From: a virus
IMG/VR virus record: IMGVR_UViG_3300032309_000851
Location: 1-26,860 of that record
DNA length: 26,860 nt
Strand: one strand, 5' to 3'
A program made the translations under genes and the position numbers. The notes under the pieces were generated by a model. The model was not told where the DNA came from. It worked only from the letters and a program-made list of their open reading frames with translations, and searched no databases. The stretch's first letter is position 1; each line of letters begins with the position of its first letter. This document shows, piece after piece, positions 3,301-18,268 of this stretch.

Positions 3301-4762
3301 CTGTATATACGTTTACTAAACTATCCCTGTTGTTTGAATTAAACACCTGATTATAGTCAATAATAGAAAGGCTTCCAGTAGAAACAAGAAGTTGTCCTAC
3401 TGGTAAAGAACTTACACCCAAGTCTGACGCATACTTTTTTAAAGAAAATCCAGTTGTGATGTCTGTAATGTCTACTGTTAATCTTGGAGAAAGTTCTATT
3501 AAGTCAAATGTTGTTCTTTGATTTGTCATTCTGTTTACAACAATACGAAGACCACGAATGTATTCAAACTCTCTATATGTTTTAGTTGTTACTCCGTAAG
3601 ATGGTGCATTAAGTTTATTTAATTCTGTCACAAATAGTTGAGAATTTGTAACGGACTCTTGGCTTCTGTACCAACCATACACTGGCGTAATTGCAGCGGT
3701 ATAGTTGTTTAGTGTTGTAGAACTTGTTCCACCATTATGAATATAAAGAGCACCCACTTCTGTGTCTGATGTTTTTACCAAGTATGCTTGTCCAGCAAAC
3801 TCTTCTCCTACAATATTTGGCAAACCAAACAGTGATGAAAGAGTTCCTACTAGTAAAAAGTTTTCCTTATATGTTGTAAGAACTTCACTATTAGTTAGTC
3901 CATAAGATAACTGAAAATAACCATCCCATCCAGCATCTGCTGTAAACTGGTCTGAAGTAGCAGAGTAAATGTCTTCCCATTTATTTTCAGAGTTTAGTTT
4001 TTGAATCTTCCAGTGCAAAGGAGTAGACTTATAATTTAAGTTAGAGCCAATAAAAAAGGGGTCCTTATTTGCTGGAGAATTTTTATCAATTAATGCACCC
4101 TTATCAATCTTGCTAACATTTGTTTGAATTTTCATAACAATTTTATTTGTTGGAATACTATTTTTATACACTACAAAAGGTGCAGCATCTTGAATTAAAT
4201 ATGGTGAGTTTCCTAATTGTGAAATTCCAAAACCAGTTCCACTAGTTCTATATGATGACCAATACTTAAACTTATCGTTTTTACCTGCTGGATAATATCT
4301 TGGTCTAGCAAAAATATCGCCAGAATAAACTGGCAACATAGCCACTCCAATATCTTTTAATCTTAGTTTATTAATTCCAGAACGTGGTCTAAACTTTTTA
4401 AAACAATCCTCTAGCGACATTAAAGATTTTTGTCTTTCATTGGATGACTGAAAAGTTACTGGTGTTAAGTTTTCATCTGTAAAGCCACCGTCAATAACTG
4501 TATCATAGTCTGTAGAACCATACCAAGTTCTGTTTGCCTCTAAGGTGTTTTCATCTTCCATAACCCAATCCTCTGCTGCAGTGTCTGCTGTATTAGATGT
4601 TGTAGGTCTATTCTTGTAATTACCAATAGCCTCAATGTTTTCAAAGATATTAAGATTCCATTCAGCAAGTACCCTGCTTTTTGTTTCAATTGCTGAAGAT
4701 TCTTGAAGATAATTTGTAAGAGTTGGGTCAATATTATTATTGATATCTTTAATAATATACAT
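356..4762 (-). CDS. Large tail-tip / minor tail protein with concanavalin-like domain
   Basis: A 1468-residue protein following the Dit-like gene, where tail-associated hub (Tal-type) proteins lie. The N-terminal part has the conserved WYGSTDYDTVIDGGF and EDCFKKFRPRSGINKL segments and RPRYYPAGKNDKFKYWSSYR, which I recall from minor tail proteins of actinobacterial phages. A hub-like middle contains TIMQVLQDLAIATQTAMFFD. About residues 960-1190 look like a LamG/concanavalin-type sugar-binding sandwich (GEGYYYEIVALNY, DIALKVNKIND, WRISVYFNGKLLTTVQDT, NDVYAI). The end (about 1290-1468) is beta-rich (GMPIIQLGDLVKFSYDT). The true start is ATG 4762: it overlaps the preceding stop as TAATG and has GGAAGAGG upstream, whereas the GTG at 4795 has neither. 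Base composition is clearly more AT-rich than that of the capsid genes. It probably contributes to host-surface recognition. Confidence 0.9.
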   Translation of the reverse strand: MYIIKDINNNIDPTLTNYLQESSAIETKSRVLAEWNLNIFENIEAIGNYKNRPTTSNTADTAAEDWVMEDENTLEANRTWYGSTDYDTVIDGGFTDENLTPVTFQSSNERQKSLMSLEDCFKKFRPRSGINKLRLKDIGVAMLPVYSGDIFARPRYYPAGKNDKFKYWSSYRTSGTGFGISQLGNSPYLIQDAAPFVVYKNSIPTNKIVMKIQTNVSKIDKGALIDKNSPANKDPFFIGSNLNYKSTPLHWKIQKLNSENKWEDIYSATSDQFTADAGWDGYFQLSYGLTNSEVLTTYKENFLLVGTLSSLFGLPNIVGEEFAGQAYLVKTSDTEVGALYIHNGGTSSTTLNNYTAAITPVYGWYRSQESVTNSQLFVTELNKLNAPSYGVTTKTYREFEYIRGLRIVVNRMTNQRTTFDLIELSPRLTVDITDITTGFSLKKYASDLGVSSLPVGQLLVSTGSLSIIDYNQVFNSNNRDSLVNVYTGNSLQFSFIDKNLQLKFYEIISRVKQNDDTYRDYYIPLKTMYADGFPQYDDSNRNLNMNLRDFAFYLESQIAPEIFLTNASTSYIIATLLDSIGFSNYEFRRLPGEQDTVIPNFFISPNKTIMQVLQDLAIATQTAMFFDEMNNFVVMSKKYLVPDSTEERNFDIMLYGSDVLVENAESLPNKKVASKKANILNISSQSNDIYTDGKITYYNRYIQKKSNEITREKLLDKNKFLSYEQQVLWSINDRQETKTQTKNEENESVSGYALSAMALAKGLSKELPKVVNQIIINNEIDFGDNVYWLARPSGYFYANGEIIKYDAIQYMAGSQKVWVTSENDYVKYFSEVSFGQKMYPTGIVRIYAEPKYNADGTYVENTIAKHGRGQFGTTVTSHFATEKELDKAWKTPQEPLVTNSQYLFKNTPSTTFTTSVINNKSNLLKAEMKPPTTTIKNFLGMPKYNLTTKKYEYRESIQASALILSGPTFSVKTNNGPSMNYVKKDLKNSVAYDTFGARIRLLGTQQEKKTDNTQKLAGSYPLYTSKNLDSQVNGESGGIGILTNSDGEGYYYEIVALNYVNSKNADGSNNFIRQNSIDTDTLIFYRLNLENGILKPTVLFKTFQNILVDSGKFASKVKGLQDSVEDSIYDIALKVNKINDKDWRISVYFNGKLLTTVQDTNPVRSRISQNISLFTRGSSQVMFNDVYAIKTMTKKPAAIEVSASSEIFNGNKTSNLSYNKYSLSSLVATGFLSNLSPSEVPENNIYYEEFGTIMRECAYLDVKFDKVYPALRSKIPPQVASVAQYLVTGYSSTPYRAEFLVFNTSDFTVGLGDGDDYSTILNIVGIGYTEEVARELTVDGFYNKRSDFSTNSDYSSQMYKNKYIDIKNSRLSYGNKAFAIESPYIQSEETATELMEYIINKVSKPRKAVGVQVFGMPIIQLGDLVKFSYDTNSVLPNTVTDNNFVVYGIEQDVSEAGPSTILYLSEVA

Positions 4763-5373
4763 TATGCCTCTTCCAGTGAAATAGACACGTCCCACATGTC
4801 GTAATTAGTTCCACCACGTTTTTCAACATTCCAAGAAAAATCTGTAATATACATCTCCAAAACTTCTGCGTACTGCCCTAGTTTTGCGTATTGCTCATCG
4901 CCATTATTGACATCAAGTTTGTCATAGGCAACAAACACATAAAAAGTCCCATTATGATTTTCATACCAGTCTAAAAGTTCTGCACCACCAGCACCGCCAT
5001 CAACAGTATATTCTGTACCTGTTCCAACTGGTATACCTGTAGATGAGTCAAAATTTGGTTCTCTTGAAAATGAACGTGACGGAAGCATAGTCCAAGATAC
5101 ATTAAGAACTCTTTTGTCCGCTATCCAGTATGAACGCATACGACCATTAACGGTTCTTTGACGATTCTCAATTCTTTGAAAACCAAAATCTAAAGAGCCT
5201 CTGTTGTGGTCAGAAAGAATAATAAAATCTTCTCCAACGCTGTTGTGAGTAGAGACCTCATTCCCATCTGGAACAAATTTCCCATCCACAATAGTTCCAG
5301 GGTTTTCAGAGAACAGCAACGCCTGTGGTCTAGCATAGTTTTTTCTACCTGCCATATAACTTGAATTAGCCAT
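4762..5373 (-). CDS. Distal tail (Dit-like) / minor tail protein
   Basis: A 203-residue protein right after the tape measure, the standard place of the distal tail protein that joins the tube to the tip. Visible segments are ILSDHNRGSLDFGFQRIENR (about 50-70), RMRSYWIADKRVLNVSWTML (about 78-98), GGAGGAELLDWYENHNGTFY (about 127-147) and a beta-rich end VLEMYITDFSWNVEKRG. The repeated Trp/Tyr/Phe strand pattern is what I associate with minor tail proteins at this position in actinobacterial phages. I chose ATG 5373 because AGAGGAAG lies eight bases upstream; the GTG at 5382 is too close to that site. It overlaps the tape measure stop by eight bases (ATGGCTAA). Its own stop forms TAATG with the next gene. 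Confidence 0.88.
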   Translation of the reverse strand: MANSSYMAGRKNYARPQALLFSENPGTIVDGKFVPDGNEVSTHNSVGEDFIILSDHNRGSLDFGFQRIENRQRTVNGRMRSYWIADKRVLNVSWTMLPSRSFSREPNFDSSTGIPVGTGTEYTVDGGAGGAELLDWYENHNGTFYVFVAYDKLDVNNGDEQYAKLGQYAEVLEMYITDFSWNVEKRGGTNYDMWDVSISLEEA

Positions 5374-8300
5374 TAAACGCACTTCCTCTTACTCGCTTAT
5401 TGTCAATCTGTCTAATTTTACTCATTACCGCATTTGCTATCTGGTCAGGATTTGAGTTAGAACTTACATTGACATTTATTTCATATGTATTACTATTATA
5501 CACTGAATCTCCTGCTACCGCTGAGGCTCCACCTACAAGTCCACCTTCTGCATATCTATTAATCTTATTAAGAGTAGAGGTTCCAATTCTATCTACCGCT
5601 GACTTCTTAATTACAAATTCTCCTGGGGTAAGCATAGCAGGAACCGTATCTGTTCCCATAGCATAGCCACCCATAGCAAATTTTGAAGGGACTATGCCGC
5701 CATTGGCAAATGCACCAAGCAACTTTCCATTTATAATCATTCCACCTGTAGCCGCCTTAACCATTCCGCCATTAGCAAACTGTGGAGGTACAGGTTCTGG
5801 TCTAGGCATTACAAAACCACCAAGAGCATATCTACGAACCATACCACCATTAGCAAAATTGGCAATAGCGTCTTGCTCATCTCTTTGTCTAATTCTTTCT
5901 TTTCTAGCGTTTTTTATTGTTTCTAGAAAATCTTGTACTACTGGTTTTTTATTATACATTCTGACTGGTATCTTTAATCCTAGTTCTTTGACAACAGCCC
6001 TTAACTGTTTAAGGTGTTCTTTATTTTGTACATAAAGTGACTCAATATCTTCTCTTGGAGAGTATCTAAGGAATTGTGCTTCCATATATTCTGGCAGTCT
6101 GTCAATCGTTCTGCTTGCCTGTAATGGGTCAAATGGGCTGGCTGTTTCTTTACCTTTGAATGGAACAGGAACAGTCGTTCCTAATGCAAGATAAGTATTT
6201 AAACTGTCTCCTTTGGTAATGCTGGCACCCCTTAGTGATGAGTTTTTCATAACAATTCCAACAGGTCCATAGTGTGCAGTCATCTGTGAGAATGGGTTGT
6301 AGAAGTCAGTTCCACCATCAACCTTTATAGGCTTTTGTGGTTTTAGTAGTGGTCTCTTTAACAATCCCTTTTGAACTAGATATCCATAGATAAGCCCCTC
6401 TGATTCTGGACCCATGCCTAGGTATTCATTTTCAAGTTGTTTTCTCATCAGTATGTCATCTGAACCTCTACTGTGTCCAGTATCAAACAACGTTTTTGTT
6501 TTGTTAGTTCTTAGCATATTTATTACAGAGTCAACACTTCTTCTTGTCATAATTGCTGGATTCTTAATAACTTTGTTAAAGCCTTGCTGTCTAGCGAGTT
6601 CTGACTGAACACCAGGAAGTAGTCTCATCGATTTTATTTCTTCTGGTGTAAACTCTCTACCACGTTCTTTTTCCATTCTTTTTACTACTTCATTAAATAC
6701 ACTTTCTACTTTTCTGTTTTCTGTTACTTGTTTTGCTGCTTTAATTTTTTCTACCATGTTTTTTGGCAATGACCCTATAGAATTTATAGCCTTGCTGCCT
6801 ATTGCTCCAATAGTCTTTGGAAATGCAGATACAGAGCCAGCAAAAACATCTATAGTTTTTCTAAGTTTTTGACCTCCTTGAAGTTCTTTAACACCCTGCC
6901 AGTTAGAGCCTCTCATAATAAGTTCTCCCAATGAAGTGGTATTTGTATTTACGTTTCCTCCTCTAACAGCAACAGGATGAGTAATAAGAGTAATTTGTTT
7001 TAATAGTTCTTCTTCTGAAAAATATTTTCTCCAAGGTGTTTTTAAACCTAAAATTTCTTTTGGCATTGGTAAGTCTTTAACGTCTGCTGTTTTTAGTCTA
7101 TCTAAAAGTTCAAGGAATTTCTTGTCACCAACAATGCCTTTTAGTTTTTCCATTCTTTGTATAAGTCCTTCTGGTCTACCATCAAACTTAAATCCAGCCC
7201 TAGCCCAAGCATATCCACCATCAGTAAGTCCAGCGTTCATCTTTACATTTCTAACACCAGCATTTTTAAGTAACGCCATCATCTGAGTTGTGGCTCTTTG
7301 TGCTATGTTCTTGCCCCTATACTGTTTCTCTAGTTCTATGTAAATATCTTGCATAGAGAACCATTCATCTCTTTTAAAATTATCTTTAACTGATGAAGTG
7401 CTGGCAGATTCTTTCATAAGAACTCCACTGAAATTTCCTACTTGGCTATCTTTGTAAAGTTTAGCATTGGTGTTTACAAAAACACCTTTTAATCCCGCCC
7501 ACATCTCATCTGGGACATATCCATCATCGAAAGAGAACATGTCTGCAATTTCTTCTGGCTCAGTTACTCCCTTTATGTTAAGAGATATTCCTTTTCCAAG
7601 TTTCATATTTGGAACTCTGGTTGCTAATCTTCCTAATTGAGCATCTAACTCTTTCCAAGGAACATCAACTGACGCAACGTTTCTTGTTTGCATATCAAAT
7701 CTCTTTGCATCAATCAATGTAGAAGCATCTCTTACAGTCTTCTTTATAGACTTTGAAATATTTAAATTTGAAAGTTTTGATGCTTTATCTTTTGCCAAGT
7801 TTTTTATAGTTTCTAAGAAGTTTGGCTTTGGCTCTGGTGGAGGTGGTGGTTTTCTTCTAGATTTTGTTGGAGGATTTAAATAAAGTGTTGGAGTGTTTTC
7901 TCCATATACCGCTCTCATCATGTTGGTTCCTGCAACATCAACTCTACGCCTTGGTTGGATTGGCAGTGGCTGAACAAACTGTGTAGAATCTAAATTATTT
8001 GTATTTAAAGCACCCATGCTAGACTTCATAAAACTTGGTAAATATGTTGCAGCAGACTTTGAACCTTGTTCTATTCCTACCGTGCCAAGTCTAAAGGCTG
8101 TTCTCATTGCTGCATTGCTTGCAGCCTGGACTGCTGGTGTTGCAATCTTAATTAATGGCTTGGCTACTGCTGCTACTGGCTTCATCAAAGCACCAAAGAA
8201 TTTTTGTACAGGCTTTAATGTTCCTAGCAATGGACCAAATATTCCAGCAGGAGCCATTGCTGCATTTAGAATACCTCCTGCTACATCACCCTTGCCAAAA

Positions 8301-11300
8301 GCGGTAGCAGAATCTCCAGCGAGTAAACCTGCACCAACACCTGGAAGAGCGTACCCTACATACTTTCCAGCATCAACAATTTCTTTGCTTCCAGGTTGTG
8401 ACATAGCCCAATACTGTTTTCTAGTTTGGTAGTCATTAAACTTTTTAAAATCTCCTTGGTTCCATGGAGCAGATGGGTCTTTCAAATCCCAAGACTTTAC
8501 TTTTCCACCATCTTTATAACCTACAAGCCCACCCTTAGCAAATTTTTGAATTGGGTCATTAGATGCATCCTTGAGTCTAAAGAACATCTCTCTTAATCCG
8601 CCAGTCATCCCAGACTCTAAATCTTCAGTTTTTGATGTTAGGTTCATCCATTTTGCTAGTTCTGGATTATTTTTAATCATATCTGCAATAAAAGGATTTG
8701 ACTTAGCCTTAATTGCAGCAACGTTTACAGGGTCTGATATATCTTTCTTTAAATCAAAACCTAGCATCTTTGATATTTTATTTATTTGTGGTGTAAGACT
8801 CTTTTTGTATTGTGCATTTTTTGTAAAGTTAGACAAACCTGTTGCTCCCGCTCCAAGAAAACTTACATACCTAAAGTCCTCTCTACTTATTTCAGAAAGC
8901 CCATTCTTTTTAAGAATATCGTTTGTTTGACGTAAATTAAATCCAGAACTTTTCATTCCGTCTACAAGATATCTTGTTCTTCTTGCAACTTCATCTGCAA
9001 ATAGGTATGCTGGAGAGTCTGGTGATTCAGTTGTTAATGCTGTAACTCCTAAATCAATATTTTCAAATCTTTTTGTTTTTTTGTTAAACAAAATATTCAT
9101 TCCATGAGTATCGCTATTTCCCAAAAGTGCGTTTGTTGGTAGTGCTTCGTCAATATATTTTCTTGTTGCTTTAGCAAGAGTGTTAGCAGCGTCAACCTTG
9201 TTTGGTGCTTTCTCCATATACTGTCTTAAAAACCCTGGGGAAGAAGGAATCAGGTCTGGAATAATCTTACTTGCAAGAGTTGTTTTACTAAGCATTTGAA
9301 GTTTTGGTCCACCCAAACCTAACTTAGCCCAAAGTGTTGAACCAATCAACTCTCCTGTTGTTTCAACAGTGGTATCTGGTCTTTTAACATAATACTCTGC
9401 TCCATTGATTGTTCTGAATGCCCCAGGTGTTGCACCTGCTGCCTCATCTTCTAAATGTGTTGGAGTTATCCTTAAACCCTTTTTTGGTGCTTGTAATACT
9501 AGAGGGAAGCCAAATACATCTGCTGCTTTCTTTGCTATCGTTTTTGCTGGCTTTAATCCAGGAAGTGCGGCAAGACCATAATCTACTGGGTCTGCTGGGT
9601 CAAAAACAAAATCTTTATAGCCCTGTATTGTATTCTTTGCACCAGTCTTTATCATGTCTGATGCTGTAGCATTTAGAGCGGCACTTGGATTACCACCAGA
9701 ACCAAACATGCTACTTATAACATTATTAAACCAATTCTGTGTATTACCAAATAAACTTTCGACAATACCACCATCTTTATATTTGCGGACCATACCTCCC
9801 ATAGCATAGCCCTTTGAGCAGCCTGGACATCCTGGGGTACCACAAGGACAGCCAACCATGCCACCCTTAGCAAAACCGTTATATCCTCCTAGCCTGTTAT
9901 ATGTTCCAAGTTTTGGGTTAAGCATAAATGAATTTGGAGAACCCTTAAACCAATCCAGTCTGCCTCTCTTGCCACCTTCATAGTCATTTGTCATATAGTT
10001 ATATGCGTACTGATATATAGGACTATCTTTTGGAATACTTCCTGAAATACCCAAATAATTTTCTGCATAATTTAGTTTTGCAGATGGACCCTTTGGTGGA
10101 TTAATAAGTCTGTCATATCTTTTACCAAACCCTAGTTTGCCAATCATGCCCTTTGTGACTTGTGGACCAAACTCAGAGTGCATTGCATCTACAAGGTTTT
10201 TAAATTCTTTAGGGTCAAGACCGTCCCAACCTGGAATCATTTTGCTTGTTTTTCCTAGTTGAATTAATGCCCTTGCTTTTTCTAAGTCTTGACCACCAGT
10301 GCTATCTGTGTAGATACCTCTATTAGAAAATGCTTTAGCATATGTAGCAATAGTATAAAGAATTGGATTCTTTGATGTCATCAATGTTGTGTCTTTGTTT
10401 AAGTCTGGAAGGTAAACATTTTCGGCTAGTCTCTTTCTTCCTTCCAACATCTTTTTGTATGCCTCAATAATATCTAGTGGGTTTTGATTAGCAGCAGGAT
10501 TTGGGAATGCAGTTCCATTATCATTAAACATTTTTTTGTTAGTGTTTTTATTATTTAACGGATTATATAGTTGGAAAGGACTATCAGCCCATGTATATGC
10601 AGATGGACCAGTTTTGACTTTGCCAAAAGACCCACCAACAGCAGAAGGTGCTGTCCACTGGTAGTATCCTGGATAGTTGAAAGTGTCATCAAATGGTGAC
10701 TGCTTTCCACCAGTCCAGTCAAACCATGTAGGGTCTTCTTTTCTAGGAGTTGGCTTAAATAGTTTAGCAATTCTGTTTCTATATGCCGCAACTGATTTAG
10801 GGTCAAATGGGTCTACGTTTGGGTACTGGTCTTTTCTTGGTGGCTTTTTACCTGTCATAGCATTTACAATACCGCCAGCAGCAAAGCCTAATCTGTCTGC
10901 TTGGTTCAATTTGTCGAGGGTATTTACACCAATCTTTTTTACAGCATTTGCTCTAATAACATATTCTCCATTAGAAAGCATTGCTGGAATATCATCGCTA
11001 GTTCCACTACCTGGACCTCTAATAAAACCACCGTTAGCGTTTGTTTGTGGCTCTGGGGTTTGCATTCTTTGTTCAACTAGTCTTCCATCTTGTGTAACTG
11101 CTGTTCCTGGTGGCAACAATTCTTTAAGCATTCCTTTAAGAAATCCTGATGGACCTTCTCTAAACAATGTTAATAGTGCCGTGATAGGAAATGCTGCTAA
11201 GTTTCCACCATAGTTCAAATAGCCAAGAGCATCATTTCCTTGCTGACTTTGAAGTAAAGGTCCAGTCTCTCCTTCTGGATTTTTTACTACAACTCCCTTA

Positions 11301-14300
11301 GTACTCAGGTCATTCATTTCTTTTGTTAGTTTATCAACTGCTGCTGTGTTAGCGGTCTGAGCATTTTTGAGTGGTTCTAGTTCTGCTTGTCTTGCCTCTT
11401 CAAGACCAGTCTTTTGATTGTCTAGAGATGCTTGAATATCATTATTTTGAATATCTACTGCAGCACGAGCAGCAGCAGCAATATCACCCTTATTAAGGGC
11501 TTCTGCTAATGTGAGTTGTCCCTGCTGTGATTTTGCAAGTTGGTCATTAAGTGTCTTAATTTTTTCTAGTTGCTCAATACGCTTGTTATATTTGTCATTA
11601 ATCTTTTGTTCCGTATTTGCAAGACCAGTAGAAGAACTGCTTATGTTGTCAATCTGTTTTTTAAGTTTTTGTTCTTTAGCACGGTCTAACTCAAGTTGCA
11701 CTCGTGCTTCTTCAAAGTTTTTTGTGTATGCATCTACAATTTCTTTGCCTCCATAGGCTGCGGCATCCAACGCTTCTTTTGTAGGGGAAACACCTGCTAT
11801 AATTGCTTTTTGCCAAATAGGGAAATTCAAATCATCAAGACCCTTTATTGCATGACCTATCTCAGCATTAAGAGAAATCATTGCTGCTTTCATTGCCTCA
11901 AGTCCAGAAGTTCCTGGCTGTTGTTTCGATATTGATATAAGTTTTGAATATTCTATATTAAATTCTTTTGCAGATATTTCTCCACTAGTAAACTGTCCAG
12001 ACAACGCACTCATGTAAGAAGCAATTTGTTCAGTTCCTGCTTTAATTTTTGCTATAGACTCAGGGTCAACTGGAGTAAGGTAAGTGTTATCAAATGCTCC
12101 AGTTGCTGCCTCTAGTGTTCTGCCTGTTGGATTAAGAGTACCCTCTGGACTTACGCCTTTTGCTCCTTCTGAAACTTGTGCAAAGATTTTCTTTAGATTT
12201 TTCTGCATTAATGCTTTTGTTTCTGGATTTGCTATAGAAAAAAGTTCTGGAGCAATACTGACTCTAGTCTTTTTTGCTTCTCTGGCAATGGCATCTATAA
12301 TTGCTGTAACACCTTCTGCTTCCATGCCCTGACCAAATAAGTCTGCAGACATTGCTTGCATTGCTGTCCTAAATTGAGCATCTGTAAGTTTTTGCATTTC
12401 TCTAGCAGACTCTTGATAAATATCTTTAAATTCTTGGCTTTGCTGGAATTGCTGGGCAATACTTGCCTCTTGTTTTGTTTGGTCTCCGCTTGCAATTACT
12501 GTACTTCTAACACCAGTAAGTTTTAAATCTGTTCCAAAGAAGTTATTAATCTTATCTAGTTTATTTTGAGTAATAGACAATGTTTCTACAATTGCTTCAT
12601 ATGCCTTAGAATTCTTTTTAATTAAAGGCATAATAAAACTATCAAATGCTTCAAATGCTGCTATTGCTGTACCAACATATGGAGCAAACTTTAGAAACTT
12701 TAGTCCTAACCCAATAGTTTCTTTGCTAAGTGACTTCATTCCTTTTGCAACTGCTCCAGCACCCATACCACCAAAACTTGTAAGCATTGAAGCCATACCC
12801 ATCATTTGTCCCATTTGTCCTGGAGCAAACATAGAGCCTACCGCTAATGCACCTGATGCACCAAAACTCTTATTTCTTATACTTCCTGTAAGGTCATTTA
12901 CATTTGTTCTTTGAATTCTATTTGCAATATAGTTTGGATTGGAAAGCATTTGCATTCTTTCCTTAAATGACAACTTTCTGCCAGTCATCATTTCAGATGG
13001 GCTTGTAACAGCATTTTCCATGCCTGGCTTGACAGGTTGTTGAGGGATGTTAGGATTAATAACAACCATGTTTTCTGGAAGAAAACTTTCACCTTGTGAT
13101 GCTACTCTTCTGCCTCTAGTTCTTTCAACTTGTTGTGCCTGTGATTCTCCTGGGGTAATGAAAGGACCTTGACTTGTTACTCTTCTGTTACGTTTAGTTG
13201 CAGCCTTGGCTTCTTCTTTTACTATTGCATCTGTACGAGCCTGACTATACGCTACCCCATCATCTCTACCGTCAATTGGGGCTTGGCTATGTGGACTGTT
13301 TCTTCTTGCACCATCTCTAGAAAGCATGGCAGGGTCATTCTGTGGCTTTTCTAGCACCTTCTTATGAGCACCTAAGAATGCTTCTGCCGAAACAGTTCCT
13401 TCTTTTCTAAATCTATCAGCAATTATTAAAGAAGCAAAATCATCAGCCCTTTGATGAGCACCAACCATGAGTGGAATACTTCTGTATGGAGTTACGTCAG
13501 GCGATATAGTTTGAAGTCCGTTAGCGGATTTTCCTCTTCCAGATGTTGGAACATTCATTCGTGCTGTTGGAGTTCCAGGAATAGTATATTGCATGGTACT
13601 GACTTTTCTTGCTTCGTCAAATACTTTTCTTACTCCCTGAGTTACATTTTTCCCTACCGCATCAATTTCTTGACTTATTGCTGTAGAAATAATTTGTGCA
13701 AATTTAGTATCATCGATAACTTCAGAACCTGCTTTTTCCATTTGTCGTGCAACATTGTTAGCAAATGCTTTTGCTTCTGGACTATTGGTGTCCAAACCTT
13801 GTCCAGCAAGTTGTGACATGAAGTCATCGTAAAAACTATCGACAAAACTTGCCCCTTCTAATCCAGTTAACTGACCCTTGTTAAATGATGCTGGCATACC
13901 AAAAGTAAGATTGTTCATGGCATTTATTTTAGAGGCTTGACCTAAAAGAACATTTTGTCCAGGTTCCATAAATGAAGCAACGTCTTGTGCTGAAACTTCT
14001 CGTGTTAAAGTTCCATGTGCCTTGACCATTCCCTGACTACCAGTGCTTCTTCCCTGTTTAGCAGCAGTCATGGAACTTAGTAGTTCAAACTGTGGAGAAT
14101 AAAGAACTTTATCAATATTTTTTTGTGTAAAACTAGTAATATTGTTTAAAGATTGACTTAATCCACCTAAAACTTCTTCACTAACTGCTTTGGCTGCATC
14201 TAATGCTTCTTTAATTCTTTTTGCATTTTTCTGAGTAATTCTTTCTGGCATTTCAAAACCAAATGATTCGGAATTGTTTTCTGCATAGCCAGGAAGAACA

Positions 14301-17158
14301 ATCTTCTTGCCAGCAAACAATGCACCAATAATTCTAGGATTTTTTCTAGTTGTTTCAGCATCAATGACTGCTTCGCCATTAGAAAGGTTTGCTGGAACTA
14401 GGTCATCTTTTGGACCACCAGGACCTCTGACCATGCCACCAAAAGCAAACTTTCTACCCTTGCCAGCAGCAAACAAACTTTTAAAGATTTCGTCTTTTGT
14501 TGACTTAGACATTCCAGATGCAAGTAGTGACTCAAACATTCCAAAGTTACCGCTTGCAGCGGCTGCTCGTGTCATAGTTCCAGATGTAGAACCTGCTGGT
14601 CTAGGAATACCAGTCTTTGTAATAGTAATACCGAATTCTTTTGCGGCTGCTTCCCAAACTGGAGACTTCATTCTATCTTCGCCAAGAAGAATGTTTACAT
14701 CTTTAATACCAGCCTTAGAAAGCATAGCCATTAGTTCAAATGGGTTTTTAGCAAATTCAGGGTTTCTGCCAATAGCCTCAGAAATCATTCTAGATTTTAG
14801 GTCATCACTAAGAACAGAACGCTTTGCTTTACCTTGGTTAGATGTAAACTGGAAGAATGGAATTCCAGACTGTTCTGCCATAGACATTCCCATTTGTGCA
14901 ATTCCCTGATGTGCTGTAGTAAAAGGTTGGTGTGCTCCATAAGCAATAACTGCACTAGTGCCTCTTACCTGCTGCATTAAAGATTCTGAAGGAGTTCCAA
15001 TAATACCGCCAGTAGCAAACCTAGGAAGACTATTATTGATTAGGGATTGAACTAGGTCTCTATTTTTTGAAACAGATTTTGCTGGAATAACTGCTTCACC
15101 ATTTGATAACATTGCAGGAATAGAGTCGCTAGTACCTGTTCCAGGACCAGACACAAATCCACCAGTGGCAAGTTTTTTAACTGGTCCTCTAGGTGTAACA
15201 GGAACAGCAAAAGCACTTTGTGCGGCTATAGAACGCTGATAGGCTGCTGTCAACATATCTACTGCTGCTGCTTCTGAGGTAAATGTCTGTTTTAGTTTGG
15301 AGTGAACTTGGTCAAGAGATGATGCAATAGCCGCAGCCTGAATCTGTTCTTGAGTCATATAGTTTACTTGTTCGCCAAGGCTTAGAGATGACTTTCCAGT
15401 TTTATTAAATATATCTTTCATTAGGGCAAAGCCCTTGATTACGTTTGCAACAGCGTTAGCAATAAGACCAAATGACATTAGCAGCACTGGACCAATTACA
15501 CCAGCAACAGCAACAAACTTAACAATAAAACCTTTTACACCTTCTCCAAGATTGTTAAAGTTTTTAAGAACATCTGTTCCAAAATTAATGATTGGAGTAA
15601 CAGCCTTCATAAACTGCTCTCCAACTGGGGCTAGTTGTGCTTGAAAATCAGCAATTGACTTTTGAAACTTGTATAATGGTGAAGACTCAATCTTTCCCAA
15701 TTCTCGTTGTGCCAACATGGAGAGTTCTAGGCTACTTGTTGATGCTAGTTTTAAAACTTCTGATGCTTGGCTACCCTGCTCAATTACGTTCTTGAACAAG
15801 GTTGACATACGAGCAAACTGGAATTTACCGAACAACTGTTCGATTGCCTTTGCTCTGTTTAGTGGGTCTAGTTTGTCTAGGGCTTGAGCAAAGTCTACAA
15901 CTGTTTTCTTTACGTCACCTTTGTTACCTTGAACAATTTCACGAAGGTTAATACCAAACCCTTGAAGCATCTTACTTGCAGTGTTTGTTGGATTAATCAA
16001 AGATGCAAGACCAGACTTTAGTGCGTTAGCACTTTCAGATGCGTTAATTCCACCTTCCTTCATTGCTGTAAGGAAAAATGCTAAGTCCTTTACATCTCCA
16101 CCAAGTTGCTGAATAACAGGAGCAGCCTTTGGAATTGCAATGGTCATATCCTCAATGCTTAGAACTGTTTGGTTTTCTACAGCGTTCAGGAAGTTGATGT
16201 CTTTAGAAAGTTGTTTAGTGGAAACACCAAAGGCATCTGTTAGTGAGATTGTTGTTTTTAGAGCCATCTGCTGGTCTACCCCACCAAGTACAGCAAGTCT
16301 TGCAGATGAAGCAACTTGTGCTAAAAGGTCTGCACCCTTTTTACCAGTTGCTGCTGCTGTTGCAGCCATATCCATGCTATCTTTAACAGCAACACCATAC
16401 TTCGTGTATTCTTGTGCAAGGAGTTGGATATCCTTGACCATTTTTTCGGTTTCCATGTTTGTGGTGCCAAGGTCTCCGTACACACGCTTAAGTCTAATTG
16501 CTGCTTCTTCAATTTCTTTGTAGGCTTTCATTGCTGCTCCACCCATAATTGAAAGCGGAATAGTAAAACCAACCATCAACTGTCGACCAGCCCACTGCGT
16601 GTTTTTACCAAAGTTTAGAAGATTAGTTGAGCCTTGTTTTAGCAACTGGTTTAAAAGTTGTTGTTTTTGTGCTGCAATCTGTGTTTTTGTTGCAAGGTTG
16701 TCCATGTCAAGGCTAAGGGGTCTAACCTTAATTGCTTGCATTGCACCATTGGCATCACGACCAAGTTTAATATATTGGCTTTGTAAGTCTTTTACTCTTT
16801 CACGAGCAACTTTATTTATTGTTTCAAATTCAGCCTGGAATAGTTTTCCAAAAGTTTTAGATGCACCGCCAGCATATCTAAAATACTCTCCCATCGAGAG
16901 TTTGTTTCTTTCAAGTGATGAGGTAAATTGTTCTGCAGTTGTTTTGACCTTAGTCATATTTGCAGTAAATGCACCAGTAGAGTTAATCGAGTTGATTAAA
17001 TTTTGTTGCATGTTTCTGGAGTCAGCAACATTGGCTGCCCCCATTTTAGCCATTTGTGTATGGAAGGCTGAGATTTGATTTTGAAGTAATCTGATGCTGT
17101 CCATTGCGGAAGCAGTATCAACATTAATTCTAATATTGGACTGAATATCGTCAGCCAT
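5366..17158 (-). CDS. Giant tape measure protein with embedded enzyme-like domains
   Basis: A 3930-residue tape measure protein that sets tail length, fills the tube and exits ahead of the DNA. Start ATG 17158 has AAAGAGG nine bases upstream. Layout by residue: helical N-terminus (1-190); TP901-type core (about 195-580), with a hydrophobic segment at 537-577; repeat R1 (663-708); nucleotidyltransferase-like domain (735-903); R2 (904-951); unrecognised region (950-1430); hydrophobic segments (1430-1510); coiled coil (1818-1950); R3 (2042-2086); unrecognised block (2095-2428); cysteine cluster (2437-2447); kinase-like domain (2575-2760); FAKGG motif (2873); hydrophobic stretch (2933-2990); GNAT-like domain (3195-3345); conserved phage domain (3537-3745); dense GG repeats (3768-3825); R4 (3827-3873); C-terminal SKIRQIDNKRVRG, typical of actinobacterial phage tape measures. 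It far exceeds the usual 700-2000 residues. The stop overlaps the next gene by 8 bases. Confidence 0.96.
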   Translation of the reverse strand: MADDIQSNIRINVDTASAMDSIRLLQNQISAFHTQMAKMGAANVADSRNMQQNLINSINSTGAFTANMTKVKTTAEQFTSSLERNKLSMGEYFRYAGGASKTFGKLFQAEFETINKVARERVKDLQSQYIKLGRDANGAMQAIKVRPLSLDMDNLATKTQIAAQKQQLLNQLLKQGSTNLLNFGKNTQWAGRQLMVGFTIPLSIMGGAAMKAYKEIEEAAIRLKRVYGDLGTTNMETEKMVKDIQLLAQEYTKYGVAVKDSMDMAATAAATGKKGADLLAQVASSARLAVLGGVDQQMALKTTISLTDAFGVSTKQLSKDINFLNAVENQTVLSIEDMTIAIPKAAPVIQQLGGDVKDLAFFLTAMKEGGINASESANALKSGLASLINPTNTASKMLQGFGINLREIVQGNKGDVKKTVVDFAQALDKLDPLNRAKAIEQLFGKFQFARMSTLFKNVIEQGSQASEVLKLASTSSLELSMLAQRELGKIESSPLYKFQKSIADFQAQLAPVGEQFMKAVTPIINFGTDVLKNFNNLGEGVKGFIVKFVAVAGVIGPVLLMSFGLIANAVANVIKGFALMKDIFNKTGKSSLSLGEQVNYMTQEQIQAAAIASSLDQVHSKLKQTFTSEAAAVDMLTAAYQRSIAAQSAFAVPVTPRGPVKKLATGGFVSGPGTGTSDSIPAMLSNGEAVIPAKSVSKNRDLVQSLINNSLPRFATGGIIGTPSESLMQQVRGTSAVIAYGAHQPFTTAHQGIAQMGMSMAEQSGIPFFQFTSNQGKAKRSVLSDDLKSRMISEAIGRNPEFAKNPFELMAMLSKAGIKDVNILLGEDRMKSPVWEAAAKEFGITITKTGIPRPAGSTSGTMTRAAAASGNFGMFESLLASGMSKSTKDEIFKSLFAAGKGRKFAFGGMVRGPGGPKDDLVPANLSNGEAVIDAETTRKNPRIIGALFAGKKIVLPGYAENNSESFGFEMPERITQKNAKRIKEALDAAKAVSEEVLGGLSQSLNNITSFTQKNIDKVLYSPQFELLSSMTAAKQGRSTGSQGMVKAHGTLTREVSAQDVASFMEPGQNVLLGQASKINAMNNLTFGMPASFNKGQLTGLEGASFVDSFYDDFMSQLAGQGLDTNSPEAKAFANNVARQMEKAGSEVIDDTKFAQIISTAISQEIDAVGKNVTQGVRKVFDEARKVSTMQYTIPGTPTARMNVPTSGRGKSANGLQTISPDVTPYRSIPLMVGAHQRADDFASLIIADRFRKEGTVSAEAFLGAHKKVLEKPQNDPAMLSRDGARRNSPHSQAPIDGRDDGVAYSQARTDAIVKEEAKAATKRNRRVTSQGPFITPGESQAQQVERTRGRRVASQGESFLPENMVVINPNIPQQPVKPGMENAVTSPSEMMTGRKLSFKERMQMLSNPNYIANRIQRTNVNDLTGSIRNKSFGASGALAVGSMFAPGQMGQMMGMASMLTSFGGMGAGAVAKGMKSLSKETIGLGLKFLKFAPYVGTAIAAFEAFDSFIMPLIKKNSKAYEAIVETLSITQNKLDKINNFFGTDLKLTGVRSTVIASGDQTKQEASIAQQFQQSQEFKDIYQESAREMQKLTDAQFRTAMQAMSADLFGQGMEAEGVTAIIDAIAREAKKTRVSIAPELFSIANPETKALMQKNLKKIFAQVSEGAKGVSPEGTLNPTGRTLEAATGAFDNTYLTPVDPESIAKIKAGTEQIASYMSALSGQFTSGEISAKEFNIEYSKLISISKQQPGTSGLEAMKAAMISLNAEIGHAIKGLDDLNFPIWQKAIIAGVSPTKEALDAAAYGGKEIVDAYTKNFEEARVQLELDRAKEQKLKKQIDNISSSSTGLANTEQKINDKYNKRIEQLEKIKTLNDQLAKSQQGQLTLAEALNKGDIAAAARAAVDIQNNDIQASLDNQKTGLEEARQAELEPLKNAQTANTAAVDKLTKEMNDLSTKGVVVKNPEGETGPLLQSQQGNDALGYLNYGGNLAAFPITALLTLFREGPSGFLKGMLKELLPPGTAVTQDGRLVEQRMQTPEPQTNANGGFIRGPGSGTSDDIPAMLSNGEYVIRANAVKKIGVNTLDKLNQADRLGFAAGGIVNAMTGKKPPRKDQYPNVDPFDPKSVAAYRNRIAKLFKPTPRKEDPTWFDWTGGKQSPFDDTFNYPGYYQWTAPSAVGGSFGKVKTGPSAYTWADSPFQLYNPLNNKNTNKKMFNDNGTAFPNPAANQNPLDIIEAYKKMLEGRKRLAENVYLPDLNKDTTLMTSKNPILYTIATYAKAFSNRGIYTDSTGGQDLEKARALIQLGKTSKMIPGWDGLDPKEFKNLVDAMHSEFGPQVTKGMIGKLGFGKRYDRLINPPKGPSAKLNYAENYLGISGSIPKDSPIYQYAYNYMTNDYEGGKRGRLDWFKGSPNSFMLNPKLGTYNRLGGYNGFAKGGMVGCPCGTPGCPGCSKGYAMGGMVRKYKDGGIVESLFGNTQNWFNNVISSMFGSGGNPSAALNATASDMIKTGAKNTIQGYKDFVFDPADPVDYGLAALPGLKPAKTIAKKAADVFGFPLVLQAPKKGLRITPTHLEDEAAGATPGAFRTINGAEYYVKRPDTTVETTGELIGSTLWAKLGLGGPKLQMLSKTTLASKIIPDLIPSSPGFLRQYMEKAPNKVDAANTLAKATRKYIDEALPTNALLGNSDTHGMNILFNKKTKRFENIDLGVTALTTESPDSPAYLFADEVARRTRYLVDGMKSSGFNLRQTNDILKKNGLSEISREDFRYVSFLGAGATGLSNFTKNAQYKKSLTPQINKISKMLGFDLKKDISDPVNVAAIKAKSNPFIADMIKNNPELAKWMNLTSKTEDLESGMTGGLREMFFRLKDASNDPIQKFAKGGLVGYKDGGKVKSWDLKDPSAPWNQGDFKKFNDYQTRKQYWAMSQPGSKEIVDAGKYVGYALPGVGAGLLAGDSATAFGKGDVAGGILNAAMAPAGIFGPLLGTLKPVQKFFGALMKPVAAVAKPLIKIATPAVQAASNAAMRTAFRLGTVGIEQGSKSAATYLPSFMKSSMGALNTNNLDSTQFVQPLPIQPRRRVDVAGTNMMRAVYGENTPTLYLNPPTKSRRKPPPPPEPKPNFLETIKNLAKDKASKLSNLNISKSIKKTVRDASTLIDAKRFDMQTRNVASVDVPWKELDAQLGRLATRVPNMKLGKGISLNIKGVTEPEEIADMFSFDDGYVPDEMWAGLKGVFVNTNAKLYKDSQVGNFSGVLMKESASTSSVKDNFKRDEWFSMQDIYIELEKQYRGKNIAQRATTQMMALLKNAGVRNVKMNAGLTDGGYAWARAGFKFDGRPEGLIQRMEKLKGIVGDKKFLELLDRLKTADVKDLPMPKEILGLKTPWRKYFSEEELLKQITLITHPVAVRGGNVNTNTTSLGELIMRGSNWQGVKELQGGQKLRKTIDVFAGSVSAFPKTIGAIGSKAINSIGSLPKNMVEKIKAAKQVTENRKVESVFNEVVKRMEKERGREFTPEEIKSMRLLPGVQSELARQQGFNKVIKNPAIMTRRSVDSVINMLRTNKTKTLFDTGHSRGSDDILMRKQLENEYLGMGPESEGLIYGYLVQKGLLKRPLLKPQKPIKVDGGTDFYNPFSQMTAHYGPVGIVMKNSSLRGASITKGDSLNTYLALGTTVPVPFKGKETASPFDPLQASRTIDRLPEYMEAQFLRYSPREDIESLYVQNKEHLKQLRAVVKELGLKIPVRMYNKKPVVQDFLETIKNARKERIRQRDEQDAIANFANGGMVRRYALGGFVMPRPEPVPPQFANGGMVKAATGGMIINGKLLGAFANGGIVPSKFAMGGYAMGTDTVPAMLTPGEFVIKKSAVDRIGTSTLNKINRYAEGGLVGGASAVAGDSVYNSNTYEINVNVSSNSNPDQIANAVMSKIRQIDNKRVRGSAFNG
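5540..5680 (-). repeat. Tape measure repeat R4 (FAMGGYAMGTDTVPAMLTPGE)
   Basis: Residues 3827-3873: FAMGGYAMGTDT then VPAMLTPGEFVIKKSAVDRIG and a helix TSTLNKINRYAEGG. It is the fourth copy of the unit, preceded by a dense run of short repeats (FANGGMV, YALGGFV, FANGGMV, ATGGMI, FANGGIV) from residue 3768. Confidence 0.85.
5924..6550 (-). other. Conserved phage domain of unknown function near the tape measure C-terminus
   Basis: Residues about 3537-3745. Features are LFDTGHSRGSDD, R-x-x-x-E, LIYGYL, YGPVGIVMKNSSLRG, then KGDSL (Gly3650), and YMEAQFLRY (Glu3693, Gln3695) with a DIESLYV strand. From memory this combination resembles a domain found in phage structural and polymorphic-toxin-like proteins, perhaps with an ADP-ribosyltransferase-type fold. 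I cannot confirm that and make no enzymatic claim. Confidence 0.5.
7124..7576 (-). other. GNAT acetyltransferase-like domain within the tape measure protein
   Basis: Residues about 3195-3345. The strand IYIELEKQYRGKNIAQRATT carries a Q-x-x-G-x-(G/A)-like acetyl-CoA loop (Gln3279, Gly3282, Ala3286) leading into a helix. It is followed by the strand NVKMNAGLTDG and GYAWARAGFKFDG (from Gly3315), the Y/W-A-x-x-G-F ending common in this fold and in phage-encoded GNAT-like inserts. The second glycine of the loop is Asn3284, so cofactor binding is uncertain. Confidence 0.6.
8879..9436 (-). other. HipA/PI4-kinase-like domain within the tape measure protein
   Basis: Residues about 2575-2760. A beta-strand Lys (Lys2592 in YYVKRP) is followed by a candidate helix-C Glu (Glu2599 or Glu2603), LWAKLGLGGPKLQML, then LLGNSDTHGMNILFN with the D-x-H-x-x-N catalytic loop (Asp2683, His2685, Asn2688), and ENIDLG with a candidate metal-binding Asp2702. 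This order and spacing are those of HipA-type Ser/Thr kinases and PI3/4-kinase-like enzymes. All residues expected for catalysis appear present. Substrate unknown. Confidence 0.7.
9818..9850 (-). other. Cysteine cluster CPCGTPGCPGC in the tape measure protein
   Basis: Residues 2437-2447 contain four cysteines spaced C-x-C-x4-C-x-x-C, set between FAKGGMV (2429) and YAMGGMV motifs. This is compatible with a small metal site or disulfides. Cysteine is otherwise very rare in this protein, which makes the cluster stand out. Confidence 0.6.
10901..11035 (-). repeat. Tape measure repeat R3 (NGGFIRGPG...MLSNGEYVI)
   Basis: Residues 2042-2086: NGGFIRGPGSGTSDD then IPAMLSNGEYVIRANAVKK and a helix IGVNTLDKLNQ. 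It is followed by FAAGGIV (2092), which opens the unrecognised block 2095-2428. Confidence 0.85.
14306..14449 (-). repeat. Tape measure repeat R2 (FAFGGMVRGPG...NLSNGE)
   Basis: Residues 904-951: FAFGGMVRGPGGPKDD then LVPANLSNGEAVIDAETT. It is a divergent copy of R1 that starts exactly where the nucleotidyltransferase-like domain ends, so R1 and R2 bracket that domain. Confidence 0.85.
14450..14956 (-). other. Nucleotidyltransferase-like domain within the tape measure protein
   Basis: Residues about 735-903. GAHQPFTTAHQ (741-751) aligns position by position with the GTFDPxTNGH signature of CoaD/NadD-type cytidylyl/adenylyltransferases: Gly741, Pro745, Thr747 and His750 are kept, but the Gly before His is Ala749. 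About 110 residues later SGTMTR (859-864) matches the second signature, (I)SxTxxR, followed by a helix AAAASGNFGMFESLL as in that superfamily. Both spacing and order fit the Rossmann-like nucleotidyltransferase fold. The substrate is unknown. Catalytic ability is plausible but uncertain because of the Gly-to-Ala change. Confidence 0.72.
15035..15172 (-). repeat. Tape measure repeat R1 (GGFVSGPG...IPAMLSNGE)
   Basis: Residues 663-708: LATGGFVSGPGTGTSD then SIPAMLSNGEAVIPAKSV. This is the first of four divergent copies of a roughly 45-residue unit known from many tape measure proteins. A further RFATGGIIG at residue 714 leads straight into the nucleotidyltransferase-like domain. Confidence 0.85.
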
Positions 17159-17188: not shown

Positions 17189-17506
17189 CTAGAGCAGACC
17201 ACCGAGGGCGGAATCTCCTAGTTTGATGCCAGATGCTTCTTCCACAATCTTATAAACAGTTGGAAGGTCTAGAAGGTCTTCTAGTGCTTTCAGGTCTGTT
17301 GCGATTTCTGGCTTGTACTGCTTTAGAGCAATTTGTACACACTCCATCAACAAGTTCATCGACTTGTCGTTGTCATCTGCAACCTTTGAAATCTCATCAA
17401 ATTTCTTCATAAAATCACGAAGCAATGAAATTTTCAATGGTCTAATGGTAACTGTAGTTCCATCAATAAGAGTAATATTCTTCTCTTCATTAATAGTTGT
17501 TGTCAT
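17189..17506 (-). CDS. Second tail assembly chaperone, G-only paralogue
   Basis: A 105-residue protein that aligns over nearly its whole length with residues 8-94 of the preceding chaperone. Shared blocks include PLKI...R-(D/E)-F-M-x-K-F-D, E-C-x-x-I-A-(L/M)-K-Q-x-x-P-E, and D-L-x-T-x-Y-K-(I/V)-x-E-x-A-x-G-I-K. It stops right after this domain (LGDSALGGLL) and has no T-like part in any nearby frame. It is therefore equivalent to the short, abundant gpG-type product that is normally made from the same start as the fusion. It has a strong AAGGAGGA eight bases upstream and its own promoter-like TGCTATAAT. Both are stronger initiation signals than those of the fusion gene, which would fit an excess of G over G-T. 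The tape measure gene begins 30 bases downstream. Confidence 0.9.
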   Translation of the reverse strand: MTTTINEEKNITLIDGTTVTIRPLKISLLRDFMKKFDEISKVADDNDKSMNLLMECVQIALKQYKPEIATDLKALEDLLDLPTVYKIVEEASGIKLGDSALGGLL

Positions 17507-17513
17507 TTGTCCT

Positions 17514-17523
17514 CCTTATAAGG
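17514..17523 (-). other. Perfect 10-base palindrome overlapping the ribosome-binding site
   Basis: CCTTATAAGG is a perfect palindrome whose right arm forms the first half of the AAGGAGG Shine-Dalgarno of the second chaperone gene. It could be a protein-binding site or chance. As a hairpin it would have no loop, so an RNA structure role is unlikely. Confidence 0.25.
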
Positions 17524-17533
17524 TCATAGATAA

Positions 17534-17542
17534 ATTATAGCA
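17534..17542 (-). promoter_or_regulatory. Extended -10 promoter-like element TGCTATAAT
   Basis: TGCTATAAT is located between the two chaperone genes, 27 bases before the ATG of the second. It leaves a leader of about 20 bases that carries the AAGGAGGA ribosome-binding site. It is identical in sequence to the element before the first chaperone and could give the G-only chaperone its own message. Confidence 0.5.
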
Positions 17543-17545
17543 TAA

Positions 17546-18268
17546 TTAGGCTTTATCGTTTAGAACTTGGTAGTCTAAGCCATTACCAATTCCAAATCCT
17601 GCCTGTTGTGCCCTTATTCCTTGCAATGAAGTAATGTCGTTAGGATTACCATTACCAATACCACTAGTCTTAGCGGCTACCCTGGCTTTCATGGCTTCCC
17701 AAGGGTCTTCTTCTTGTTTTCCAGATGCTTCATCCAGGTCAATGCCTTTTAGTGATGCTGTAAATTTTTTGTCTTGATAATCCATCTCTCTTTTTTGCTC
17801 TAAGATAGACATTAGTTCTGCCAAACATATTGAAGATTCCAACTCATCATAGTTTTTCCAAATACCCAAAAGAAATGCCTCTGATTCTAATTTATTTAAA
17901 TCTAAATCTTCCCATCCAGACTTAGATGAACTTTCTTCTTGTTTTGATATATCTTGTACTTCTTCTTTTTCTTCTACTTCAGTATCCATCTTAATACCGC
18001 CAGCATGTTCAATAACCTTGTACATTGTCTTTAAATCAAAATTGTCTTCAAACTTTTCTACCGTGTCTACTTCTGGATAGAACTGTTTCATTGCTATAGT
18101 CGCACACTCCGTAAGTATTTCAATAATCTCGTCTTCGTCTTGTGCCGTTTTTACGGAATCAAACTTAGTCATAAACTCCCTCATATGCTTAATCTTTAGT
18201 GGAGAAACTTCTATCTTTTTTCCATAAATTGTTTTGACATAGGCTATATCGTATATTTTTGTAGGCAT
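17546..18268 (-). CDS. Tail assembly chaperone, G-T type encoded in one frame
   Basis: A 240-residue cytoplasmic chaperone that should bind the tape measure and recruit tail-tube subunits. Residues 8-94 are a G-like domain (SPLKIKHMREFMTKFD, ECATIAMKQFYPEVD, DLKTMYKVIEHAGGIKM). A Glu/Ser/Lys-rich linker (95-117) leads to a T-like domain (118-198: LESEAFLLGIWKNYDELESS, CLAELMSILEQKREMDYQDK, EDPWEAMKARV). The Gly/Asn-rich tail (199-240) is probably flexible. In most siphoviruses the T part is reached by a -1 ribosomal frameshift; here both parts are in one uninterrupted frame, and I see no convincing slippery heptamer at the junction. ATG 18268 has no ribosome-binding site and a -10 element 6 bases upstream. 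A paralogue of the G domain follows 39 bases later. Confidence 0.9.
   Translation of the reverse strand: MPTKIYDIAYVKTIYGKKIEVSPLKIKHMREFMTKFDSVKTAQDEDEIIEILTECATIAMKQFYPEVDTVEKFEDNFDLKTMYKVIEHAGGIKMDTEVEEKEEVQDISKQEESSSKSGWEDLDLNKLESEAFLLGIWKNYDELESSICLAELMSILEQKREMDYQDKKFTASLKGIDLDEASGKQEEDPWEAMKARVAAKTSGIGNGNPNDITSLQGIRAQQAGFGIGNGLDYQVLNDKA

Follow-up and report, generated by a model that had tools for sequence, protein, structure and literature searches.

The tape measure gene and its neighbours

The window analysed here is the whole of IMG/VR virus record IMGVR_UViG_3300032309_000851, 26,860 nucleotides long and with a GC content of 37.8 per cent. Because this virus contig measures 26.9 kb, it probably holds an incomplete phage genome. 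Its largest gene (5366..17158, minus strand) encodes a tape measure protein (TMP) and is a single open reading frame (ORF) with an ATG start and 3930 codons without interruption. The N-terminal ~650 residues of the product match both Pfam PhageMin_Tail (E = 1.1e-24; 87.9 bits, cut-off 33.2) and the PHROGs TMP family phrog_10030 (E = 4.4e-98). Tail-chaperone-like genes lie upstream and minor tail genes downstream, and the morphogenesis module around the TMP is of the standard type, running from portal through head maturation protease and head protein to an Ig-domain/major-tail-like protein, then the two chaperone-like genes, the TMP, and the minor tail proteins. The two small chaperone-like genes (17189..18268, minus strand; individually 17189-17506 and 17546-18268) both match phrog_10504, so the pair has the look of tandem paralogues, unlike the frameshift arrangement that is usual. 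On the other side of the TMP gene is a tail gene of 206 aa (4762..5382, minus strand) with an equivalent position in the related loci L002 and L004; no additional gene lies between it and the TMP gene in the window, L002, or L004.

Three parts of the TMP recur among its relatives. The first is an N-terminal rod (aa 1-700; 15059..17158, minus strand) with a hydrophobic segment at aa 537-566, which shows ~60-94 per cent identity among the relatives fetched. The second is another rod segment, R2 (aa 1432-2040; 11039..12865, minus strand), with one hydrophobic segment at aa 1495-1513, and the third is a C-terminal segment (aa 3815-3930; 5369..5716, minus strand) that contains the linker-like sequence GTDTVPAMLTPGEFVI. 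The closest isolate TMPs, at ~30 per cent identity, belong to Streptomyces phages of the genus Samistivirus, and a scan of cellular genomes returned one TMP, with 35 per cent identity, in a metagenome-assembled genome labelled as cyanobacterial. We also considered whether the long ORF might be a frameshift or chimeric assembly joining unrelated genes. This was rejected: relatives from independent samples carry the same kind of single ORF.

Enzyme-like domains within the protein

A preliminary description of this DNA had proposed that the one 3930-residue TMP holds several enzyme-like domains, and we independently found four of these at near-identical coordinates. None of the four reaches the Pfam gathering cut-offs in the window. 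We take them to be more than chance resemblances: other TMPs contain each of them, and dN/dS values of 0.09-0.33 show purifying selection on all the cargo tested. The TMP is thus predicted to be a carrier of multiple enzyme-like domains, with support from sequence and structure models that is good for a nucleotidyltransferase and moderate for the three others.

The nucleotidyltransferase (aa 728-905, previously placed at 735-903; 14444..14977, minus strand) is the best supported of the four assignments. It matches the cytidyltransferase family phrog_3041 (E = 4.7e-10) as well as phrog_395 (E = 7.6e-5), and scores 18.2 bits with Pfam CTP_transf_like (PF01467), under the cut-off of 21; a PDB sequence search gave no meaningful match. 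The HxGH-like, GxDR, and STxxR motifs of HIGH-type nucleotidyltransferases are all present. In an alignment with the cytidyltransferase of cyanophage S-MbCM6 they pair as GAHQPFTTAH/GRFNPPTVGH, GEDR/GGDR, and SGTMTR/SASKLR, and in both proteins the first H of the HxGH-like motif is replaced by T. The phrog_3041 match and the motifs bear out the nucleotidyltransferase signature that had been reported.

The second domain (aa 2555-2770, previously 2575-2760; 8849..9496, minus strand) carries the HipA-like motifs YYVK, ETTGE, GNSDTHGMN, and IDLG. Across six sequences of this domain, which are 20-76 per cent identical to that of the window, the catalytic residues K43, D134, N139, D153, and G155 are invariant. 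They correspond to the Lys of YYVK, D-x-H-G-x-N, and D-x-G, the pattern expected of a phosphotransferase core. Scans of the block alone with Pfam and NCBIfam found nothing convincing, and a PDB sequence search gave no meaningful match. An AlphaFold model of the domain is of low confidence (mean pLDDT 46), and Foldseek matches of this model to the PDB are weak (best E = 0.004), yet nearly all of the best 20 are kinase-fold enzymes, including PI3K, Bud32/PRPK, RIO1, aminoglycoside and macrolide phosphotransferases, CtkA, and LicA. Membership of the HipA_C family was rejected, as Pfam HipA_C matched none of eight records at E <= 10. Given the unmatched HipA_C profile, the invariant catalytic core, and the kinase-fold matches, our wording, at moderate confidence, is that the domain works like a kinase-fold phosphotransferase and not that it is HipA. 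The HipA/PI4-kinase-like assignment first suggested for it holds as to motifs and, more tentatively, as to fold.

The domain nearest the C-terminus (ART1; aa 3535-3735, previously 3537-3745; 5954..6556, minus strand) had been described as a conserved phage domain. It does recur in TMPs, and is more properly called ADP-ribosyltransferase-like, with resemblance to DarT and DUF3626. R35, Y54, G55, Y93, G94, D114, and E156 are invariant across 12 ART1 sequences. A structure model built from these 12 sequences (pLDDT 60) has DarT (eight) and a tRNA 2'-phosphotransferase (one) as its best nine Foldseek matches in the PDB, with E values of 0.005-0.46 and probabilities of up to 0.97 (Thermus DarT), but 0.35 for the top row. 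Nine viral models (BFVD) match below 0.001, with a best E of 1.7e-8; they include a DUF3626 protein (E = 1.2e-4) and a protein of 1045 aa whose annotation lists a NAT_SF domain. A profile search found PDB 7dn8, which we take to be an ADP-ribosyltransferase effector, with a match (E = 0.001) that covers most of the domain. The Pfam DUF3626 profile (PF12294) matches three TMP relatives (best 1.1e-4) and gave no match on the window domain. Together these results point, with moderate confidence, to the ADP-ribosyltransferase superfamily. When the ART and kinase-like domains, and a relative's copy of each, were searched with tblastn against 50,697 phage genomes, there were zero matches; at this sensitivity neither cargo family appears to occur in those isolates.

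The remaining domain (aa 3185-3343, previously 3195-3345; 7130..7606, minus strand) contains YRGKNIA and DGGYAWARAGF, and Pfam and NCBIfam scans of the block gave no convincing match. A five-member profile found N-alpha-acetyltransferase 30 (NAA30) in the PDB (E = 0.0016) over the stretch of the acetyl-CoA motif only, while tblastn matched a capsid protease of a Microbacterium phage (E = 9e-4) and, in a Gordonia phage, a protein annotated as acetyltransferase (E = 5e-3). The NAA30 match sustains the GNAT-like fold proposed earlier, and we assign the domain to GNAT with moderate confidence. Its acetyl-CoA motif (Q/R-x-x-G-x-G/A) reads RGKNIA, with N for G, where relatives have RGKGIA, QGKGIA, or QKMGIG, which makes activity of the window copy less certain. 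Ahead of this domain (aa 2790-3130; 7769-8791, minus strand) runs a Gly/Ala-rich hydrophobic leader beginning ALPGVGAGLLAGDSATAFGKGD. A related leader precedes ART in L002 and L005, with 74 per cent identity to L005 across aa 2873-2976; it recalls pre-toxin segments, and family scans gave no match.

Two large blocks had been left unrecognised. Each is a module conserved in other TMPs, and scans with Pfam, NCBIfam, and PHROGs found no match for either. B1 (aa 942-1270; 13349..14335, minus strand) occurs in at most 6 of the 69 TMPs surveyed below, a figure that counts the window's own clade, and B4 (aa 2110-2440; 9839..10831, minus strand) in 3 of the 69. Behind B4 is a Cys-rich stretch containing CPCGTPGCPGC (GCPCGTPGCPGC; aa ~2429-2456, ~9790-9875, minus strand) that is also found in L004 and takes the form ACPCGRPGCPGC in L018. 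It is possibly a metal-binding or disulfide element.

A constant backbone with varying cargo

To place the TMP among relatives, its N-terminal rod was aligned against IMG/VR, and of at least 565 confirmed loci the 80 most similar were taken; scans of IMG/VR with single-domain peptide patterns had given few relatives. After removal of redundancy, these 80 and earlier loci yielded 69 TMPs with a minimum length of 1000 aa. The N-terminal rod is present in all 69, and R2 and the C-terminal segment were detected in nearly all of the complete ones. On this constant backbone, cargo domains appear, vanish, and shift position between relatives. Iterated profiles found a second kinase-like family in 29 TMPs, ART1 in 12, B1 in 6, GNAT and the HipA-like domain in 5 each, and the nucleotidyltransferase, a second ART-like domain, a C-terminal domain (Cx), and B4 in 3 each; as the loci are the 80 most similar, these are not population frequencies. 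TMP length ranges from ~1700 to ~4000 aa on related rods, and in the smallest TMPs, of ~1700 aa, the cargo profiles recognise nothing. ART1 illustrates the shifts in position: near the C-terminus in the window, it follows the first rod in L033, L055, L057, L086, and others.

The most frequent cargo, the second kinase-like family, is absent from the window's TMP. K, E, D-x(4)-N, and D-x-G are conserved in it, and we call it kinase-like from these motifs alone; a PDB search with its profile brought no match. The second ART-like domain, in L005 (L005:16600-17100), L040, and L051, was assigned by motif only, from an FQSEG(L/V)LPP stretch. Library scans of the relatives brought up further classes. 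Four carry a HAD phosphatase in slot 1 (Pfam Acid_phosphat_B, 1e-16; polynucleotide-kinase phrog_415, 5e-16) and three have a weak match to phosphoheptose isomerase (phrog_1238) in the same slot; one has an OmpA domain (E = 1.1e-16) in later slots, and there were ParB-like matches too. The TMP of L020 (L020:6066-9920) combines the second kinase-like family in slot 1, a block with the zincin-like motif HEFGH in slot 2, GNAT, and the Cx domain.

The preliminary description had read the domains as enzymes that act on small molecules or proteins, in contrast to the wall hydrolases mainly known from TMPs, and the set found (kinase, ART, GNAT, and nucleotidyltransferase) fits this: no wall-hydrolase family is among the matches listed in the Pfam and library scans of the TMPs of the window and its relatives. 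Nine cargo profiles run against ORFs outside the TMPs gave no match in the metagenomic loci, mostly 10-20 kb each, and their sole non-TMP match is in L102, a cyanophage record taken for comparison.

Linkers and the exchange of cassettes

Several of the domains closely follow glycine-rich linkers of the type GG-x-GPGTGTSDSIPAMLSNGEAVI. There are three of these in the window, all on the minus strand: linker 1 (aa 661-711; 15026..15178), which begins GGFVSGPGTGTSDSIPAMLSNGEAVI, linker 2 (aa 902-950; 14309..14455), and linker 3 (aa 2038-2100; 10859..11047). The nucleotidyltransferase begins 47 residues past one linker and ends 17 short of the next, and the linker boundaries of the HipA-like and GNAT domains are less tight.

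L019 has no nucleotidyltransferase, and a single linker occupies the site. The left half of this linker matches window linker 1 at 26/31 aa and linker 2 at 19/31, while its right half matches linker 2 at 29/34 and linker 1 at 7/34; nucleotide counts for the two halves go in the same direction. A chimeric linker of this kind is the expected product of recombination between two linkers, which could have run in either direction. In a second case, comparison with L081, whose rod is 91 per cent identical, shows one more linker in L086 together with an ART cassette. The second linker of L086 matches L081's only, first linker at 50/70 and the first linker of L086 matches it at 35/69. L019 and L086 are thus two cases of linker-bounded insertion or loss.

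Divergence is also mosaic within single protein pairs. Between the window and L002, the rod has a dS of 0.91 and the kinase cassette one of 0.42; between the window and L004, the values are 0.53 for the rod, 0.31 for B4, and 1.36 for GNAT. L005 and L040 are 80 per cent identical in the second ART-like domain and 69 per cent in the rods, and L053 and L067 have N-termini that are 98 per cent identical and later parts that differ.

Discussion

The window TMP is probably a ruler that doubles as an enzyme load for the newly infected cell. We propose that it has two parts, a backbone that measures the tail and exchangeable enzyme cassettes that are ejected with it and modify the host at entry, and put the probability of this reading at roughly 0.6. 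The constant backbone (N-terminal rod, second rod, and C-terminal segment) would set tail length and leave the virion before the DNA, as siphophage TMPs are thought to do when they are ejected into the envelope and form a conduit for DNA (PMC10770324, PMC6116005). Folded enzyme cassettes behind glycine-rich linkers, occupying a few slots of the backbone, would travel along. The narrowness of the tail tube, ~4 nm (PMC9022992), counts against this, for folded domains of 20-25 kDa could pass it only if closely packed or unfolded on the way. At infection the TMP would go into the envelope and part of it would get to the cytoplasm, where the kinase-fold, ADP-ribosyltransferase, acetyltransferase, and nucleotidyltransferase domains may act on host molecules ahead of the first phage gene expression. 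Candidates for these molecules are transcription or translation factors, or defence signals. Homologous recombination at the repeated linkers would add, remove, and swap cassettes, giving each phage its own enzyme set. Catalytic activity, ejection of the TMP with entry into the cytoplasm, and the host targets are the elements of this reading that we infer.

ATP, NAD+, acetyl-CoA, and NTPs are cytosolic cosubstrates. Cargo of this kind should therefore work either in the cytoplasm of a newly infected host, once delivered there, or in the producing cell ahead of assembly. Delivery at entry is favoured because fusion to an ejected protein makes sense mainly for delivery, and because there are precedents in the TMP-fused enzyme of P23-45 and in T4 Alt and the polyvalent proteins, which offer the same enzyme classes to the same end. 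Action in the producing cell would mean that the TMP, late, abundant, and cytoplasmic before it is sheathed by the tube, works there on late host or phage proteins (e.g. tail or head proteins at assembly) or excludes competing phages, with trapping in the virion incidental. The cosubstrates are available there too, and until the tube polymerises the TMP lies exposed under a coat of chaperones (PMC9022992). We nevertheless think this unlikely: a free-standing gene would be the simpler route, and the confinement of the profiles to TMPs in the loci examined points to a need for the virion location.

Another reading places the work of the cargo in the cell envelope at entry, where it might alter envelope proteins or assist the TMP pore in the manner of muralytic inserts. 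The TMP inserts of T5 and TM4 do act on the wall (PMC6116005), and the OmpA domain of one relative and the HEFGH motif of L020 would suit such a role. The transferase and kinase domains, however, require cosubstrates from the cytosol, and with wall hydrolases missing from the scan matches listed we regard an envelope role as quite improbable. Least probable is that the domains are catalytically dead folds, bulk or spacers that tune tail length or tube packing; the spread of TMP lengths on related rods and the deviating acetyl-CoA motif of the window GNAT are in keeping with it, but the kinase-like K, D, N, and D-x-G and the ART R, YG, D, and E are among the few invariants at low identity, and globular enzymes are ill-suited to lengthening a helical ruler.

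Wall hydrolases and one RNA polymerase were already known in TMPs, as were the polyvalent proteins. The idea that non-hydrolase enzymes are unusual in a TMP accordingly needs qualifying: known TMP enzymes are mainly wall hydrolases, but the TMP-fused RNA polymerase of P23-45 is a precedent (PMC10770324). Like the window TMP, gp96 of this Thermus phage is a giant TMP with an enzyme that is not muralytic and for which a role at DNA entry has been proposed (PMC10770324). The enzyme of gp96 is large, single, and N-terminal, a virion RNA polymerase, whereas the window TMP has several small transferases, each of another class, in slots that allow exchange. T5 pb2 and the TMPs of mycobacteriophage TM4 and phiIPLA35 also contain a catalytic domain, in their case a cell-wall hydrolase working outside the membrane (PMC6116005). 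Samistivirus TMPs such as LilMartin gp56 share a homologous N-terminal rod (~30 per cent identity) and a similar gene order with the window, but gp56 has 2105 aa and none of the cargo profiles match it. DarT DNA ADP-ribosyltransferases and DUF3626 phage proteins resemble the window's ART domain in fold, at a sequence identity of ~10-20 per cent.

Polyvalent proteins of phages and conjugative elements are likewise large and multidomain, with ARTs, kinases, GNATs, and nucleotidyltransferases (PMC5512222). They include peptidases too, often join GNAT and ART in one polypeptide, and have been proposed to be injected with the DNA (PMC5512222); T4 Alt is a precedent for an ART packaged in the head (PMC7824862, PMC5512222). 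The TMP family fits their definition as large polypeptides with several ART, kinase, GNAT, or nucleotidyltransferase domains. Polyvalent proteins are not TMPs, however (the main text of PMC5512222 does not contain 'tape measure'), whereas the window cargo sits in one, and their nucleotidyltransferases are of the Pol-beta type where the window's is of the HIGH type. We propose that the window family be read as a tail-borne counterpart of the head-packaged polyvalent proteins. Within the clade, the TMP might further be a general effector-delivery chassis, its slots accepting many enzyme classes through linker recombination and the tail acting as a loaded syringe, an extension that we consider evenly balanced. 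Such a chassis would be an analogue of the polymorphic toxins, which have a variable C-terminal toxin and an immunity gene next to it; the window cargo differs in being internal, with the same tail genes directly downstream.

The open-licence papers searched describe no TMP family with multiple transferase cassettes that can be exchanged, which, given that scope, is weak evidence of absence. A study of mosaicism in phage proteins could confirm no genuine recent case in TMPs (PMC10684548), and the window TMP family supplies clear candidates, with a crossover product visible. The passage of folded enzymes through a 4-nm tail tube also becomes a testable question. If the cargo is delivered, a swappable enzyme set would let phages reprogramme the host before they transcribe a single gene of their own, and uncultured aquatic phages would offer, in their TMPs, a source of host-modifying and counter-defence enzymes.
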